From positions 62,001-126,000 of the forward strand of contig NZ_WJBI01000002.1 of assembly GCF_020804225.1 (NCBI RefSeq): a DNA stretch of 64,000 nt. Reading direction: 5' to 3'. This DNA is from Methanosarcina sp. DH2. GTDB lineage: Archaea; Halobacteriota; Methanosarcinia; Methanosarcinales; Methanosarcinaceae. Each line of letters opens with the position of its first letter. Position 1 is the first letter of the stretch. The position numbers and the translations under genes are program-made. Below the pieces are notes generated by a model. The model made no database searches, was not told where the DNA came from, and worked only from the letters and a program-made list of their open reading frames with translations. Shown here one piece after another: positions 56,869 through 62,835 of this stretch.

Positions 56869-57441
56869 TCATTTACAGCTAATTAGCTTCCCTGTTGAAG
56901 ATTCAGGGATAAGTTTGCATATTATATCATATAGTCCAATAAGGTCACCTGAATGGAGATACAATTCTTCGTCGTTTACCAGGGTCAGGCGAAGTTCATC
57001 CCGTTCTTCGTCCTGGTAGATTCCTTTGCCGATATCAAGCATCCGAATTGCGGTAAGTGGAATTTCAAATAAAATTATATTAAAAGCTTTATTCCATCCG
57101 AAGATTCTGCGGTTGGTTACATAAGTAAAACAGTATTTCCAGATAGGATGAGATTGCTGGAAGTAAGAGCCATAGAATTGGAACTCGATATCTTCATTTT
57201 CCTGGAGGAGAGGCCCGGTTTTCCGGTGTTCGAGCTGCCAGGCTCTGGTATTTTTGTCAAGTTCTTCAAAAAGCCCGTATTCAAGCATGGTCTCAATGGA
57301 TGCAATCGCAGCTCCAAGTTTTACTCCAATGAGAGGAATTCCTGCAACTGAAATTATAACATCTGCATTAATAAGCACTCCCTTTGTAACCAATCGGTTG
57401 AGCAGTTCTCCAAGACTATCTTTTTCGCGTTCAGGTTTCAT
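56869..57441 (-). CDS. GvpA-family protein (GvpJ/M-like) fused to a PH-like domain
   Basis: 190 aa from ATG 57441, which overlaps the gvpL stop (ATGAAACCTGA). Residues 1-60 are GvpA-fold: LGELLNRLVTKGVLINADVI, ISVAGIPLIGVKLGAAIASI, ETMLEYGL. After a linker, residues about 95-180 resemble a bacterial PH domain (YVTNRRIFGWNKAFNIILFE, IPLTAIRMLDIGKG, LRLTLVNDEELYLHSGD). GvpJ/M proteins are minor, essential nucleation components, usually about 80-110 aa. The added domain is unusual and may bind membrane or other Gvp proteins (inference). Confidence 0.8.
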   Translation of the reverse strand: MKPEREKDSLGELLNRLVTKGVLINADVIISVAGIPLIGVKLGAAIASIETMLEYGLFEELDKNTRAWQLEHRKTGPLLQENEDIEFQFYGSYFQQSHPIWKYCFTYVTNRRIFGWNKAFNIILFEIPLTAIRMLDIGKGIYQDEERDELRLTLVNDEELYLHSGDLIGLYDIICKLIPESSTGKLISCK

Positions 57442-58231
57442 CCTCAATATTCCCCTTGAGATCAACAAAACTGAAAGGTGCCCATGGCCCTGTAAATCTT
57501 ACTGCAAATCCTTCTCTTCTGTTTATTTTCTCAAGGCTTTGCCCAAGTCTTTCGATGTTGTCGTGGATAACAAGGCAGGAAAATGCAACCATAAGTTTTT
57601 TGCCCGTGTATTTCTCAGGTATATAGGGAATTTTCTCCTCAATTTTCAATTGTGTTACATTTTCTCTTATTAATTTCCCAAATTCTTCTCCCAGACTTAC
57701 CAGATGATCATTTACTGCCTGTTTCAAGCTGAGCTCGAATTTTTTTTTGAAAATGTAAGCTTTTCCCTTTGACATGCCTTCTATTTTATTGTTTATCTCT
57801 TCAAGTTCGGGAATTGCCTCTATTACCTGTTTTTCCAGAATTTTCGAATCGTAAAAAATCTGTACAGAATATTCTGCAGAGTTTTTTAACCTGTCAAGTT
57901 CTCTTTTATAGGAGCCATAATCCTTTTGAAGCCAGTTTCTTATGGCTTCGTCATCCCCTCTGGCGAGGCATCCGAAAGAAAACGGCAATACGGTGTTAAA
58001 GTACTCAGTTGCTTTATCAATTACGTAGTTATGGTTCAGAATCCACTGATGAGCCTGTTCTTCATTCTGTGCAGGCTCGGGTTCAGGTTTAGAAGCATGT
58101 ACGACAGCTGCAATATCCTGGAAAACAATAGTGTATACAGGCCTATCGCCAATGCCAATGTCTCCCAGGTTTATTTCTTCTTCAGTGTTAGCTATCAAGT
58201 AAAGATATCTCCCCTGGTCGGTTTCGGTCAT
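57431..58231 (-). CDS. gvpL: Gas vesicle protein GvpL (GvpF/L family)
   Basis: 266 aa. GvpF/L features: an N-terminal RYLYLIANTEEEINLGDIG domain, VLPFSFGCLARGDDEAIRNW, a long helical region and C-terminal GFAVRFTGPWAPFSFVDL. GvpF and GvpL coat or chaperone GvpA during assembly. Its start overlaps the 3' end of gvpK by 44 bp and its end overlaps the next gene by 11 bp, so translation is coupled. AGGTAGAGGAGC precedes the ATG. Confidence 0.93.
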   Translation of the reverse strand: MTETDQGRYLYLIANTEEEINLGDIGIGDRPVYTIVFQDIAAVVHASKPEPEPAQNEEQAHQWILNHNYVIDKATEYFNTVLPFSFGCLARGDDEAIRNWLQKDYGSYKRELDRLKNSAEYSVQIFYDSKILEKQVIEAIPELEEINNKIEGMSKGKAYIFKKKFELSLKQAVNDHLVSLGEEFGKLIRENVTQLKIEEKIPYIPEKYTGKKLMVAFSCLVIHDNIERLGQSLEKINRREGFAVRFTGPWAPFSFVDLKGNIEDET

Positions 58232-58544
58232 GCTCCTCTACCTCTTTAGCCCATCTTACAGGATTTATTAATTTATCTACTACATCATCTACGACCTCAT
58301 CCAGTCCACACCGTACGGATTCAACGGTATCTTCGAGATTATTGTCAGCCTTTATGATTTCAAGTGCTTCGTTCAAATCTGCAAGTGCTTCTCCAAGTCT
58401 CTCGATCTCTTCATCACTGAGACTATCTTTTTCGATCCTCAGGAGAGCCTGCTTTTCAAGTAACTCGGTTATTATTTCAACAAGAGCTACAACAAGACCC
58501 AGTACGCCTTTTTTCAGATTTTTTTCATCAATCTTAAGCGGCAT
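58188..58544 (-). CDS. gvpK: Gas vesicle protein GvpK
   Basis: 118 aa, full length. NLKKGVLGLVVALVEIITEL, LLEKQALLRIEKDSLSDEEI and RLGEALADLNEALEII are conserved GvpK helices; the C-terminus has VDKLINPVRWA. GvpK is essential for vesicle formation in haloarchaea. GGAGAGGAAATTCC precedes the ATG. It lies between gvpH and gvpL in the same operon. Confidence 0.95.
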   Translation of the reverse strand: MPLKIDEKNLKKGVLGLVVALVEIITELLEKQALLRIEKDSLSDEEIERLGEALADLNEALEIIKADNNLEDTVESVRCGLDEVVDDVVDKLINPVRWAKEVEEHDRNRPGEISLLDS

Positions 58545-58569
58545 GGAATTTCCTCTCCTTTCATCGATC

Positions 58570-59241
58570 TTAATCGATTTTTTCTCTTCGTTTTATTTTC
58601 AGCTGCAGTACACCGTTGCTAAAACTTTTCTCTTTAATCGCTTCTGCTTCCGAAGGTAAAGTTATGATTTTCCTGTACATCCCTGCAGAAATATTCAGTT
58701 TGCTGCCTTCAAGTTCTATCTGGATATCTTCCTCATTGGCGTCCGGAATCTCAGCAATTACAAAAATATGGTCCTCTTCTCCGAAAACATCAAAAACAGG
58801 TTCAATTCTGGTAGATTCGATTTTTACTTCTTCGATTCTCTTTTTATGGACCATCCCTGTCGAAGTTTTCGCAGGCTTTGTGTTAAGTGGCCTTATAGAG
58901 AATCCATAGTTTACAACAGGCTTTTTATCGCTCCAGCCGGTCTCAAGCCTGTGTTTTATTTCCGAATCAGTTTCGGCAATTCTTTGTCTAAACTCAGGAG
59001 AAGTTTTTTCAAGAGTTTTTACTATTTTTCCGAAGCCTGGAATAAGGGAACCTACAAGATCTCCCACAAAACTTTCTTCACGATATTCGGATTCCCTTTT
59101 TTCTCCAAGACCTTTCTCAAGTTCCTTTATTCTTTTTTCCATGGCTTTCATTTTGGATTCTAATTCTTCTCTGGACTCTAACTTCTCTTTTTCTTCTTGA
59201 GATTCACCTTCATATTTTCTTTCTGCCGTATCCTTTTCCAT
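58570..59241 (-). CDS. gvpH: Gas vesicle protein GvpH with Hsp20-like domain
   Basis: 223 aa from ATG 59241, chosen for AGGGGCTAAA just before it. The first half is a charged coiled coil (EKLESREELESKMKAMEKRI) followed by VGSLIPGFGKIVKTLEK and VVNYGFSIRPL. The second half is an alpha-crystallin-like domain: DVFGEEDHIFVIAEIPDANE, IQIELEGSKLNISAG and SFSNGVLQLKIKRRE. In haloarchaea GvpH stabilises GvpC and modulates assembly; here gvpC is not seen. Confidence 0.92.
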   Translation of the reverse strand: MEKDTAERKYEGESQEEKEKLESREELESKMKAMEKRIKELEKGLGEKRESEYREESFVGDLVGSLIPGFGKIVKTLEKTSPEFRQRIAETDSEIKHRLETGWSDKKPVVNYGFSIRPLNTKPAKTSTGMVHKKRIEEVKIESTRIEPVFDVFGEEDHIFVIAEIPDANEEDIQIELEGSKLNISAGMYRKIITLPSEAEAIKEKSFSNGVLQLKIKRREKID

Positions 59242-59395
59242 TTTAGCCCCTTTAATCCAATTTTGCATTTTAAACCCGATAATGTAAACCTTTAAACCTT
59301 ATATGCAGGTTCAATGCTCTAAATCAGGCACTATCGCCTTGATATCGAGCCATGATAAGTAAATGCAATGCACTGATAACTTAATCCGATGACAT

Positions 59396-59764
59396 TCATC
59401 TGGGAGGTTTTATTTCGACTTCAGAGAGTCTTTTATTCTTAAACGGGCTTTCCCATCCGCATATCGGGCATCCCTCTTCTATCAAAAGCTTTTCTTCTCG
59501 TCGGTTTCCGCATTCAGGGCAGTTTGCATACGTTTCAAAACTTTTCTCCCAGACCGGAGCATTGAGATTGGTTCCTGAAGGGAATTCAAGCCCGTACTTT
59601 GCCGCAGTTTCAAAGGATGCAATAGTAGCTGTGATTTTAACTCCAAGGAGCTCCGTACCTCCGACAGATACAGAGATATCGGCATTAAGTACAAGCCCTT
59701 TATCGAGAATTCTATCTATTACGTCAACAAGTCCCCCCGACTCCTTGACAACCGAACCACTCAT
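59396..59764 (-). CDS. GvpA-family protein with C-terminal zinc ribbon, copy 2
   Basis: 122 aa. Residues 10-60 have the GvpA fold (LVDVIDRILDKGLVLNADIS, VSVGGTELLGVKITATIASF). The C-terminus carries CPECG and CPICG pairs, then GWESPFKNKRLSEVEIKPPR. It is almost identical to the upstream copy, with a longer tail and Y instead of H/I before CPECG. GGTGAAATA precedes the ATG. It probably serves as GvpJ or GvpM; the zinc ribbon is an addition to the usual form. Confidence 0.88.
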   Translation of the reverse strand: MSGSVVKESGGLVDVIDRILDKGLVLNADISVSVGGTELLGVKITATIASFETAAKYGLEFPSGTNLNAPVWEKSFETYANCPECGNRREEKLLIEEGCPICGWESPFKNKRLSEVEIKPPR

Positions 59765-59798
59765 TATTTCACCTTTTTATCAGTTCCAATCCGAATTT

Positions 59799-60137
59799 TT
59801 AGAGGTTCTTTTTAAGCGGACTTTCCCATCCGCAGATTGGGCATCCCTGTGCCAGCAGTATTTTTTCTTCTCGTCGATTTCCGCATTCCGGGCAGTTTAT
59901 ATGTGTTTCAAAACTTTTCTCCCAGGCCGGAGCATTGAGATTGGTTCCTGAAGGGAATTCAAGCCCGTACTTTGCCGCAGTTTCAAAGGATGCAATAGTA
60001 GCTGTGATTTTAACTCCAAGGAGCTCCGTACCTCCGACAGATACAGAGATATCGGCATTAAGTACAAGCCCTTTATCGAGAATTCTATCTATTACGTCAA
60101 CAAGCCCCCCCGACTCCTTGACAACCGAACCATTCAT
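59799..60137 (-). CDS. GvpA-family protein with C-terminal zinc ribbon, copy 1
   Basis: 112 aa. GvpA core as in copy 2, then a ribbon with CPECG and CPICG separated by NRREEKILLAQG. GGTGAAATA precedes the ATG. The pair arises from a tandem duplication of about 370 bp that includes the intergenic ribosome site. Divergence is concentrated in the last 20 residues, so one copy may be specialising. Confidence 0.88.
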   Translation of the reverse strand: MNGSVVKESGGLVDVIDRILDKGLVLNADISVSVGGTELLGVKITATIASFETAAKYGLEFPSGTNLNAPAWEKSFETHINCPECGNRREEKILLAQGCPICGWESPLKKNL

Positions 60138-60348
60138 TATTTCACCGTTTATTCACCTGTTTATTTATCTGTTTATTTATCTGTTTATTAATTCATTTTT
60201 AGCTCCTGTAGAACTTCCAGATCCAGATATATGAAACCGGAATTAATGATGTACCGGCATTATTCTCAGTTATTTTTAGAATATATTTACTGTGGGCTGC
60301 AAGTGGTTCCCTGGGGATCCTTGAAGGATGTAATAGATTTTTATGTAT
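60138..60348. other. Operon-internal gap with TTTATTTATCTG repeat
   Basis: A direct repeat of TGTTTATTTATC (three copies, 60152-60190) lies just before the GvpA/zinc-ribbon pair. No gene is present. A secondary promoter may be here. Confidence 0.45.
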
Positions 60349-60624
60349 TTAGCCCTCCTCAGCCTCTGACTTCCTGGATACACGTTTTCCGGGCTTTTCT
60401 GCTTTTCTTTCAGAATCATTAACCCTGACATTGTAAGAATATTCGATTTTAGAGCCAACCGGTCCCTTGCAGATATTTCTTCCTGATTTCTCGGATATTT
60501 TTTTTGTTTCCATCTCTTCAAGCAATCTGAAGAAGTCCATCATCTTCCAGCAGGATTCTCTGGATTCCGAGTTCCGATCTTTTGTATGTCTTTTCTTCTC
60601 AGGCAAGGATGTCGCTTCTGACAC
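60349..60624 (-). CDS. Short GvpH-like protein without Hsp20 domain
   Basis: 91 aa from a GTG at 60624, inside the end of gvpG, with AGGAG 10 nt upstream. WKMMDFFRLLEEMETKKISE, KSGRNICKGPVGSKIEYSYN and VRV resemble the N-terminal region of GvpH proteins (D-F-x-x-L-L-E, S-G-R, YxYxVR). The Hsp20 half is missing. It is translationally coupled to gvpG. The family assignment is tentative. Confidence 0.6.
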   Translation of the reverse strand: MSEATSLPEKKRHTKDRNSESRESCWKMMDFFRLLEEMETKKISEKSGRNICKGPVGSKIEYSYNVRVNDSERKAEKPGKRVSRKSEAEEG

Positions 60625-60880
60625 TGAGGTTCATCTCCTCAAAACGCTCTGCAAATTTCAGTTGCTCCATGAGCCTGGACTTTGTTTCTTCAAATTCTTC
60701 CCTGGGAACCTCACCAAACTCATATAACATTTGATTTTCCTTTATCTCGTTTTTGACTTTTTCAGGGTTGTACAGTTCTTTATACGCAAGGTTTTTTATG
60801 ATTTCTAGCGTGTAAATTAAATCAAGTCCGGGAATTGAGATTCCCAGCGCCCGGAGAATAAGATCGTCAAGGAGGAACAT
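60599..60880 (-). CDS. gvpG: Gas vesicle protein GvpG
   Basis: 93 aa. FLLDDLILRALGISIPGLDL, YTLEIIKNLAYKELYNPEKV and FGEVPREEFEETKSRLMEQL are standard GvpG. Its ATG overlaps the gvpF stop (TAATG), and GGAGG lies inside gvpF. GvpG is a small helical minor assembly component in the same block as GvpF. Confidence 0.93.
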   Translation of the reverse strand: MFLLDDLILRALGISIPGLDLIYTLEIIKNLAYKELYNPEKVKNEIKENQMLYEFGEVPREEFEETKSRLMEQLKFAERFEEMNLSVRSDILA

Positions 60881-61539
60881 TACCTGAAGCCTCCCCTCTG
60901 TTTGGATAATATATGTATATCTACGAAATTGTAAGGTGACCAGGGTCCACTATACTGGATCTTAAATGAATCATACTTGGTTTCTAGCCTTTCAATTTCA
61001 TCTGAAAAAGCCTCTATCTTATCTTTTTCCACAAGAAATGAAGTGTTCATTATAAGGCGCTTGCTGAAAAGGCTCATGTCTTTGGAATCAAAAGCTATCT
61101 GCTTAAGATCTGTTAAAAACTCGGATTTGCACTGTTCTGCTTTTTGCAAGTCCCCATCAAAATCTTGTGGCAAAATCACCTTTACTCCGAGTTCGACCCT
61201 GTTATCCACGATTTTTATGGATTTTCTCATAGCCTTGTAACCGGACCTCATAGAGATGTCTACCAGTTTTTTGTTTTTGAAGATCATGCCATATGCCACA
61301 GGGATGACACTGTGCCTTTTCATTACCTCATTAACCACGTAAGTATGAGTCTTTACTTCCTCCTCATTTTCAAGCTCGTACTTTTTAAAAGGCACATCAC
61401 TTACAACAGGAGAGAATTCCTTATATTTGATAGTGTATACCTCTTTTCCCTGAAAGCCTATGTTTCCGAAACTATCCTGTTCCTCCTGGGCCTTAATTAT
61501 GCAGTAGACATATTTCCCGTTTCCATTGTCTTTGTTCAC
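60880..61539 (-). CDS. gvpF: Gas vesicle protein GvpF
   Basis: 219 aa from a GTG at 61539, preceded by AGGGGGATACAGG. N-terminal GKYVYCIIKAQEEQDSFGNI, VIPVAYGMIFKNKKLVDISM and C-terminal KIQYSGPWSPYNFVDI define GvpF/L. It is the shorter of the two GvpF/L proteins here and sits before gvpG, as in haloarchaeal clusters. GvpF contacts GvpA and starts assembly. Confidence 0.94.
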   Translation of the reverse strand: MNKDNGNGKYVYCIIKAQEEQDSFGNIGFQGKEVYTIKYKEFSPVVSDVPFKKYELENEEEVKTHTYVVNEVMKRHSVIPVAYGMIFKNKKLVDISMRSGYKAMRKSIKIVDNRVELGVKVILPQDFDGDLQKAEQCKSEFLTDLKQIAFDSKDMSLFSKRLIMNTSFLVEKDKIEAFSDEIERLETKYDSFKIQYSGPWSPYNFVDIHILSKQRGGFR

Positions 61540-62111
61540 CCTGTATCCCCCTAGAGGTGGTCAGAAACTCATTTAAAGTCACTAAAAGTCACTAAAAGTC
61601 ATTAAAAGTCATTAAAATTAATCTGCTATCAGGTGTTCCTCAAGGATGTTACGGACACTTTTCCATTTTCTGCAGTTTTGACGTTTTTTCTTATCTTAAT
61701 TAACTTATTAGCTTGAATTAATTAGCTTGAAATTAATTAGCTTGAAATTAATCAGCTTGAAATTAATCAGCTTGAAATTAATCAGCTTGAAATTAATCAG
61801 CTTGATAATTTAATGACGTTTCAGCACGCTTCGGTTTGTTTCATCTTTCAGTTTGTTAAGAGAAGTGATGCCATAGGCTCCGGGATTTAGCAGGACAGTG
61901 AACTCTCTATGGACAATGTAAAATATTTCTATCCCGCACACAGGTTTACATGCGATAAAGGCAAGCACAAAGATGCCAGCATATTCTTTAATAAGCCGTT
62001 ATATCATGGAATAGTTCATATTGAAGCCTTAAAAGCTGCTTGCAGGTGGAATTGTCATTTTTTGAATTTAAGAAGCCAGTCTTTACCGATACATCCCTGG
62101 CTTCCGCATAC
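61540..62111. other. 570-bp gap in the gvp cluster with two tandem repeats
   Basis: AAAGTCACTA-type 10-bp units (61573-61615, four copies) and a 15-bp unit AGCTTGAAATTAATC (61708-61812, about seven copies) occupy its right-to-middle part. A 68-codon plus frame at 61909-62115 lacks a ribosome site and runs antisense to the operon. gvpF may need its own promoter here. Confidence 0.5.
61708..61812. repeat. 15-bp tandem repeat, about seven copies
   Basis: Unit AGCTTGAAATTAATC / AGCTTGAAATTAATT, nearly perfect across the array. It lies between gvpF and gvpO. Confidence 0.9.
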
Positions 62112-62399
62112 TTAATTGATATAACAATCATCCAGTATGACCATGTCTCCTCTATGCCGCAGTCCCACCCTTCTGTACTCCAAAATATTCAGATTTGTAT
62201 CGAGTTTCATTTCGTAGAGTCCCAGTATGTCCTGTGTATCAGGGACTGCCCTCCTCTCCAGAACTTCTAACTGGACAGTCCAGTTTTCCCCCTCCCTGGA
62301 TATACCCACTACTCCCTGCCCTTTCTTTTTAAGAAGATACTCTATCTGACGAAGTGCTTTGTCCCCTACTTCTTTTACTGTATTCTTTTCTTCCTCCAT
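62112..62399 (-). CDS. gvpO: Gas vesicle protein GvpO
   Basis: 95 aa from ATG 62399, preceded by GGAAGGGGTAAT; an ATG at 62456 would add a leader not found in the family. GvpO pattern: NWTVQLEVLERRAVPDTQDI, LGLYEMKLDTNLNI and YRRVGLRHRGD. It is essential for vesicle formation in haloarchaea and follows gvpA as there. Confidence 0.92.
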   Translation of the reverse strand: MEEEKNTVKEVGDKALRQIEYLLKKKGQGVVGISREGENWTVQLEVLERRAVPDTQDILGLYEMKLDTNLNILEYRRVGLRHRGDMVILDDCYIN

Positions 62400-62595
62400 A
62401 TTACCCCTTCCAAGTAAGCACAAATTCTTAGCTAGTAATCCCCAAAAATATATCAAATTCTAATTAATTAGAATTTGATTTTTATGTTAGCTCTGAAATT
62501 ACATCCTTAACAGATTTCTCTTTTTAGACAATTCTCTTTGGAACTTGTATTTACCTCAATCATATCGAGGACGAAAAAATAGTCAGATTTGCTTC

Positions 62596-62835
62596 TTATG
62601 TATTAACCTGTGGTGGCTCTGCTTCCAACGCAGCTACGGCTCTTTCAATCCTTGTGATCTCTTCAGCATAGTGCAGGAATGTATCCACAGATGCTATAAC
62701 GATCCTGGCTTCTATTGTTAAGATTTCGATTCCGACAAGTGAAACCCTGGCCCATAAATCTATAACTACGCCTTTGTCAAGTATTCGGTCCAGCACATCT
62801 GCCAGACTGGAACCATCAGGACTTTTATTTACCAT
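62596..62835 (-). CDS. gvpA: Major gas vesicle structural protein GvpA
   Basis: 79 aa. The conserved core is [40 protein letters not shown] and [11 protein letters not shown], followed by a short A/E-rich tail. GvpA forms the ribbed helical shell. CGGGGGATAAAGT precedes the ATG at 62835, a very strong ribosome site. It is first in the cluster, separated from gvpO by 196 bp, which could allow a gvpA-rich transcript. Confidence 0.97.

Follow-up and report, generated by a model that had tools for sequence, protein, structure and literature searches.

Putative zinc ribbons on the tandem GvpJ proteins of a Methanosarcina gas vesicle cluster

The gas vesicle cluster and the GvpJ tail

The window, a stretch of 64,000 nucleotides from Methanosarcina sp. 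DH2, carries a gas vesicle cluster on its minus strand in the order gvpA-O-F-G-(small ORF)-J1-J2-H-K-L-M. The structural protein gene gvpA (62596..62835) is followed by gvpO (62112..62456; PF05800), by gvpF of the GvpL/F family (60880..61539), by gvpG (60599..60880) and by a small ORF (60349..60624), which is tentatively regarded as gvpI-like from position and similarity only and which gas-vesicle Methanosarcina conserve in the interval from gvpG to gvpJ. Two copies of gvpJ, J1 (59799..60137, 112 aa) and J2 (59396..59764, 122 aa), precede gvpH coding for an Hsp20-like protein (58570..59268), gvpK (58188..58544; PF05121), gvpL (57431..58231) and gvpM (56869..57468). The genes gvpA, gvpF, gvpG, gvpH and gvpL were assigned by Pfam and NCBIfam matches, J1 and J2 by ORF, Pfam and NCBIfam, and gvpM by Pfam, NCBIfam and predicted structure. 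Neither in the cluster (56869-62835) nor in the whole genome was gvpN found, as the best match of the GvpN model reached 35 bits at a cut-off of 267 and lay outside the cluster. Short tandem repeats at 60141-60189, 61575-61617 and 61710-61810 (units of 12, 10 and 15 bp, respectively) occupy the gap 5' of J1 and the one that separates gvpO from gvpF.

GvpJ is a minor GvpA-fold protein that acts at the start of the gas vesicle. Both J1 and J2 match Gas_vesicle (PF00741) at residues 12-49 with 50.9 and 50.6 bits (cut-off 25), and their best NCBIfam model is halo_gas_GvpJ with 98 bits, versus about 49 bits for GvpA and about 46 bits for GvpM. The curated cut-off of halo_gas_GvpJ (125 bits) is missed; since this is an exception model for haloarchaea, the missed cut-off speaks against a haloarchaeal GvpJ and not against GvpJ. 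The position of both copies, with gvpG on one side and gvpH/K/L/M on the other, matches the place of GvpJ in the order FG-JHKLM, which PMC9501494 gives for M. barkeri.

Behind the GvpA-type cores, both proteins carry CPECG-x13-CPICGW at residues 82-104 (J1: 59826..59894, CPECGNRREEKILLAQGCPICGW; J2: 59453..59521, CPECGNRREEKLLIEEGCPICGW), just as the first-pass annotation, made from the letters of this DNA, had described. The tail follows the pattern CPECGNRREEK(x5)GCPICGWxSP, and its two CxxC knuckles have conserved surroundings (CPxC..CPxCGW) in J1 and J2. Among 88 ribbon-bearing GvpJ sequences, P83, L94, G103, W104 and W72 of the linker are invariant beyond the cysteines, whose own invariance is by selection, as these sequences had been pre-selected for the ribbon. 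Run on the genome from which the window comes, a model built on the GvpJ ribbon picked up J1 and J2 alone (E 4e-19 and 4e-18; the following match had E 0.014), and it found nothing below E 0.005 in three Methanosarcina genomes that had given no match to GvpJ. Chance pairs of CxxC are ruled out by the conservation of the surrounding residues and this genome-wide specificity. We regard the four-cysteine tail as a putative zinc ribbon, which would bind zinc. No Pfam zinc-ribbon model exceeded its cut-off for J1 or J2 (Zn_ribbon_3 14.8 of 27, CPCC 17 of 24.5), AlphaFold2 modelled GvpJ with moderate confidence (pLDDT about 80 over the ribbon region, pTM 0.31), and comparison of this model, itself of little help, with the PDB returned no significant structure match to the ribbon.

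History of the gvpJ pair

The first-pass annotation had described J1 and J2 as a fresh tandem duplication with diverging tails. The tandem layout is evident from a 93% match over a 373-bp period, whereas the freshness of the pair and the divergence of its tails did not hold up. From the ribosome-binding site to codon 77 (59905..60145 in J1, 59532..59772 in J2), the copies differ at 3 positions in about 240 bp (3 of 233 coding bases), versus 17 of 88 bases past codon 77 (Fisher p 4e-8). Synonymous divergence (dS) rises from 0.020 in the core to 0.80 in the tail (about 40-fold; Fisher p about 1e-5), with changes at 1 of 51 synonymous sites in the core and at half of the sites in the tail; as the tail comprises 19 synonymous sites, its dS is rough, but the contrast between core and tail is not. 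The tail value matches the one between J1 and another Methanosarcina (0.81).

Since a fresh duplication should lead to uniform synonymous divergence, either the copies are older and their 5' parts underwent gene conversion, or one of the tails was imported by recombination. On the substitution pattern, we consider that the 5' tract of about 240 bp was homogenised recently, probably by gene conversion. The tail dN/dS of about 0.14, with all ribbon landmarks kept, indicates that the ribbons are conserved and not released; judged by this ratio, both tails are under purifying selection. The tail of J1 is the faster-evolving one, with a dN of about 0.15-0.17 to the nearest Methanosarcina relatives in comparison to about 0.06 for J2, and the tail of J2 is closest to the tails of other Methanosarcina. 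The higher dN of J1 would fit a fresh duplication in which the tails diverge through positive selection or relaxed constraint, as would the finding that, of 8 gas-vesicle Methanosarcina genomes, only this one has two adjacent gvpJ copies. However, the low dN/dS and the retained landmarks argue against this history, and the dS contrast already contradicts it unless the tail of J1 or J2 came from another strain by recombination, so that we regard it as improbable. In the M. spelaei contig L005, the small ORF and gvpJ lie as far apart as in the window; a remnant of J1 was not found there, and unrelated sequence fills the interval.

Distribution of the ribbon in gas vesicle proteins

A search with full-length J1 covered one genome per species in 84,980 species, and the ribbon is present in 79 of the 80 best loci, which were the ones taken. 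They belong to methanogens, Methanophagales, Methanoperedens, Bathyarchaeota, Desulfobacterota, Chloroflexi, Atribacteria, Bacillota, Actinomycetota and others. Because the query contains the ribbon, such a search favours ribbon carriers; it was repeated with the NCBIfam GvpJ core model, which stops short of the tail. Using this core-only model on a Halobacteriota sample of 392 genomes, the ribbon was found in 20 of 21 non-haloarchaeal GvpJ proteins that were checked (both window genes counted), the single exception being a gene broken past the first CxxC, but in none of the 34 sampled haloarchaeal GvpJ proteins, all of which have an acidic tail. In the phylum samples, where clade membership was defined by the motif ASFETAxxYG, it is present in six of seven GvpJ proteins from Desulfobacterota (the seventh is truncated), in 4/4 from Bacillota and in 3/3 from Actinomycetota. 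The Bacillus-type paralogue (VASVDKAKEIGIDWW) represents a different group without a ribbon. The first-pass annotation had made its reading depend on homologues in other gas-vacuolate Methanosarcina, and every gas-vesicle Methanosarcina genome examined has a ribbon GvpJ. Its statement that standard GvpJ lacks a ribbon has to be turned around: the putative ribbon is the usual form in the GvpJ clade, and those that lack it are chiefly haloarchaeal. On this unrooted comparison, the simplest reading would be that the clade had the ribbon early on and that mainstream haloarchaea lost or replaced it. In the open literature, a zinc ribbon on GvpJ was not found in titles, abstracts or GvpJ papers, and the only zinc motif found recorded for gas vesicle systems is a C-terminal finger of GvpC (PMC9501494). 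We regard the GvpJ ribbon as a new and widespread variant within a known protein family.

Besides, some loci show peculiar arrangements. Plasmids of the haloarchaea Natrinema zhouii and Natronococcus occultus (L120:8974-11534 and L121:8962-11529) carry a module of ribbon-GvpJ-K-L-M with only two GvpA-fold proteins, and gvpA was not found on the plasmid. Another haloarchaeal GvpJ tail (L128:1213-1740) has a Cys/His motif of another kind (CKALTASGERCSRPAKDDGFCHQHD), which may be a further zinc site of independent origin. The idea of ribbon-GvpJ clusters without gvpA was dropped, as most of the 20 genomes concerned have further GvpA-fold genes, and nearly all of those limited to J and M are draft MAGs.

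The distribution also bears on the suggestion of the first-pass annotation that the ribbon ties vesicle assembly to redox or zinc. In such a switch, oxidation of the cysteines or loss of zinc would free the partners of GvpJ and halt assembly, so that buoyancy would depend on oxygen or metal status. CxxC pairs can indeed be redox-active, and many carriers are anaerobic (Methanosarcina, Methanothrix, Desulfobacterota), but the ribbon is also kept in Actinomycetota that are usually grown in air (Brevibacterium, Kocuria, Streptomyces). In addition, the invariant residues near the cysteines (P, G, W and L) argue for a structural fold, and neither a sensor domain nor a regulator was found in the cluster. 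The suggestion found no support in our data and we consider a switch highly improbable.

The ribbon model was also run on 16,420 ORFs from the fetched loci. Apart from GvpJ-like extra copies, it matched GvpM at the C-terminus in about 16 loci (E 5e-13 to 8e-9), small, usually double-ribbon proteins in about 18 loci (down to E 7e-11) and two Hsp20-like proteins (E 1e-10 and 9e-10), while ORFs without a visible gvp link begin at E 0.03. The domain is therefore reused within the assembly machinery, and in the genomes searched the predicted ribbon is a distinct, gas-vesicle-specific subtype. Standard GvpM, for which a ribbon had likewise been denied, often bears one. The double-ribbon proteins (L017, L018, L019, L022, L023, L025, L026, L027, L029, L031, L041, L042, L043, L050, L052, L055) adjoin or lie near gvpJ in Desulfobacterota, Chloroflexi, Atribacteria and others. 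A natural Cys-less mutant is GvpJ of Methanoperedens (L021, 5021-5757), as its tail ARSHESINRREEHLLIEEGFPISGLEN has lost all four cysteines and the ribbon tryptophan; the gene directly after it codes for an Hsp20-like protein with an intact N-terminal ribbon. In a second archaeon (L186), both GvpJ and the Hsp20-like protein have ribbons.

GvpM of the window is longer than Halobacterium GvpM, and its C-terminal part (about residues 92-188) is predicted with high confidence to adopt a PH/GRAM fold (pLDDT about 90). Significant Foldseek matches of this part are largely PH-domain proteins, and a GvpM homologue exceeds the Pfam cut-offs for GRAM and a Vps36 PH-like family. Many GvpM proteins have the ribbon appended after one or two PH/GRAM domains, whereas the window GvpM has the domain without a ribbon. 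In a protein of vesicle nucleation, PH/GRAM domains could serve for contacts with membranes or with other Gvp proteins. The arrangement of domain and ribbon is relevant to the possibility that GvpJ is held on mRNA, DNA or ribosomes by its ribbon and that vesicles would thereby start at the sites of Gvp synthesis. The tail weakly resembles the zinc ribbons of the ribosomal proteins eL43 and eL37 (E 0.004 to 0.03) and gives weak NCBIfam matches to RNA-binding ribbons, but these matches stay far under the cut-offs and are driven by the CxxC spacing. The ribbon of Methanosarcina moreover contains acidic stretches (EEK..IEE), and its occurrence after the PH/GRAM domains of GvpM is more typical of protein or lipid contacts. 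Binding of nucleic acids or ribosomes is thus an unlikely role, with little probability in our view.

A possible docking head and its counterparts in known systems

With moderate confidence, we favour the interpretation that J1 and J2 are GvpJ proteins with a structural, zinc-stabilised ribbon to which accessory Gvp proteins dock, and that they are paralogues with a homogenised 5' tract and two ribbons under selection. A short linker, in which one tryptophan is invariant, connects the ribbon with the GvpA-fold core. In the nucleation complex, the ribbon would lie on the side exposed to water and form a rigid head, which may be recognised by GvpG, GvpH, GvpL or GvpK. It occupies the corresponding place in the protein and would do the job of the cysteine-free acidic tail of Halobacterium GvpJ. 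This proposal builds on the presence and conservation of the putative ribbon, its specificity for gvp clusters and its reuse on partner proteins; zinc binding, the position at the nucleus and the identity of the receptor we infer. Considering the recent 5' homogenisation and the purifying selection on both ribbons, J1 and J2 are both probably working docking heads and neither is a drifting duplicate.

A docking site had also been proposed in the first-pass annotation, and it appears to be the most plausible function in the light of the Halobacterium data in PMC8716928. There, GvpJ is required for vesicle formation, deletion of five C-terminal residues abolishes vesicles in spite of the protein still being present, and the C-terminal half (fragment J47-114) binds GvpG, GvpH and GvpL. 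The last 30 residues are dispensable for GvpL binding, so at least GvpL may be contacted independently of the tail; the authors consider that the AAIA motif/helix 2 may mediate contacts (PMC8716928). If the ribbon were a pure folding aid, it would merely cap and solubilise the aggregation-prone GvpJ and have no specific partner. A solubilising tag predicts just such a replacement as is seen in haloarchaea, an acidic low-complexity tail. Both Halobacterium findings, the loss of vesicles despite protein being present and the binding of three partners by the C-terminal half, speak against this explanation, and the invariant residues beyond the cysteines argue for a specific surface; we consider it rather unlikely, if less so than a switch or a nucleic-acid tether.

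More tentatively, the docking head may be one part of a shared zinc-ribbon code in most gas vesicle systems outside haloarchaea and the Bacillus/cyanobacterial type. GvpJ, GvpM, GvpH-like and free double-ribbon proteins would then be marked for one receptor, and the best-studied systems would have lost the ribbon or never had it. We regard this extension as possible, though doubtful. A shared ribbon among Gvp proteins could stem from duplication and not from a common receptor. The start of the vesicle is poorly understood, and the ribbon offers a defined, mutable surface for finding the partner in the nucleation complex as well as an entry point for turning vesicles into engineered acoustic reporters.

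The best NCBIfam match of the tail is the small zinc-finger family HVO_0416 (NF041910; E 5.5e-6, residues 64-105, score 26 versus a cut-off of 80), yet this is a separate family of small proteins. Halobacterium GvpC resembles GvpJ of the window in having a C-terminal zinc-finger motif on a gas vesicle protein (PMC9501494). An identity of the haloarchaeal GvpC finger with the GvpJ ribbon was rejected, as in Pfam the GvpC motif matches ROS/MucR, a family of regulators. GvpM of Desulfobacterota, Chloroflexi, Atribacteria and others shares the C-terminal ribbon subtype (E down to 5e-13) but has a core of another subfamily and one or two PH/GRAM domains separating core and ribbon. The ribbon GvpJ proteins of Streptomyces, Brevibacterium, Desulfoluna, Methanothrix and others show 53-67% identity over the matched stretch and have the four cysteines, W72, L94 and CGW; in contrast to the window, they usually read CPQCGK..CPWCGWxSA instead of CPECGN..CPICGWxSP and occur as a single copy. 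Where annotation was seen for these proteins, it reads only "gas vesicle protein". GvpJ of Halobacterium salinarum (pNRC100, 114 aa) is comparable to GvpJ of the window in its GvpA-fold core with the motif ASFETAAxYGLEFP and in its place upstream of gvpK-gvpL-gvpM, and the identity over residues 7-67 is 61%. Unlike the window protein, it has no cysteine and ends in an acidic, Ser/Thr-rich tail instead of a ribbon (PMC8716928). The well-studied haloarchaeal GvpJ is the exception, and the model systems are not typical of GvpJ.
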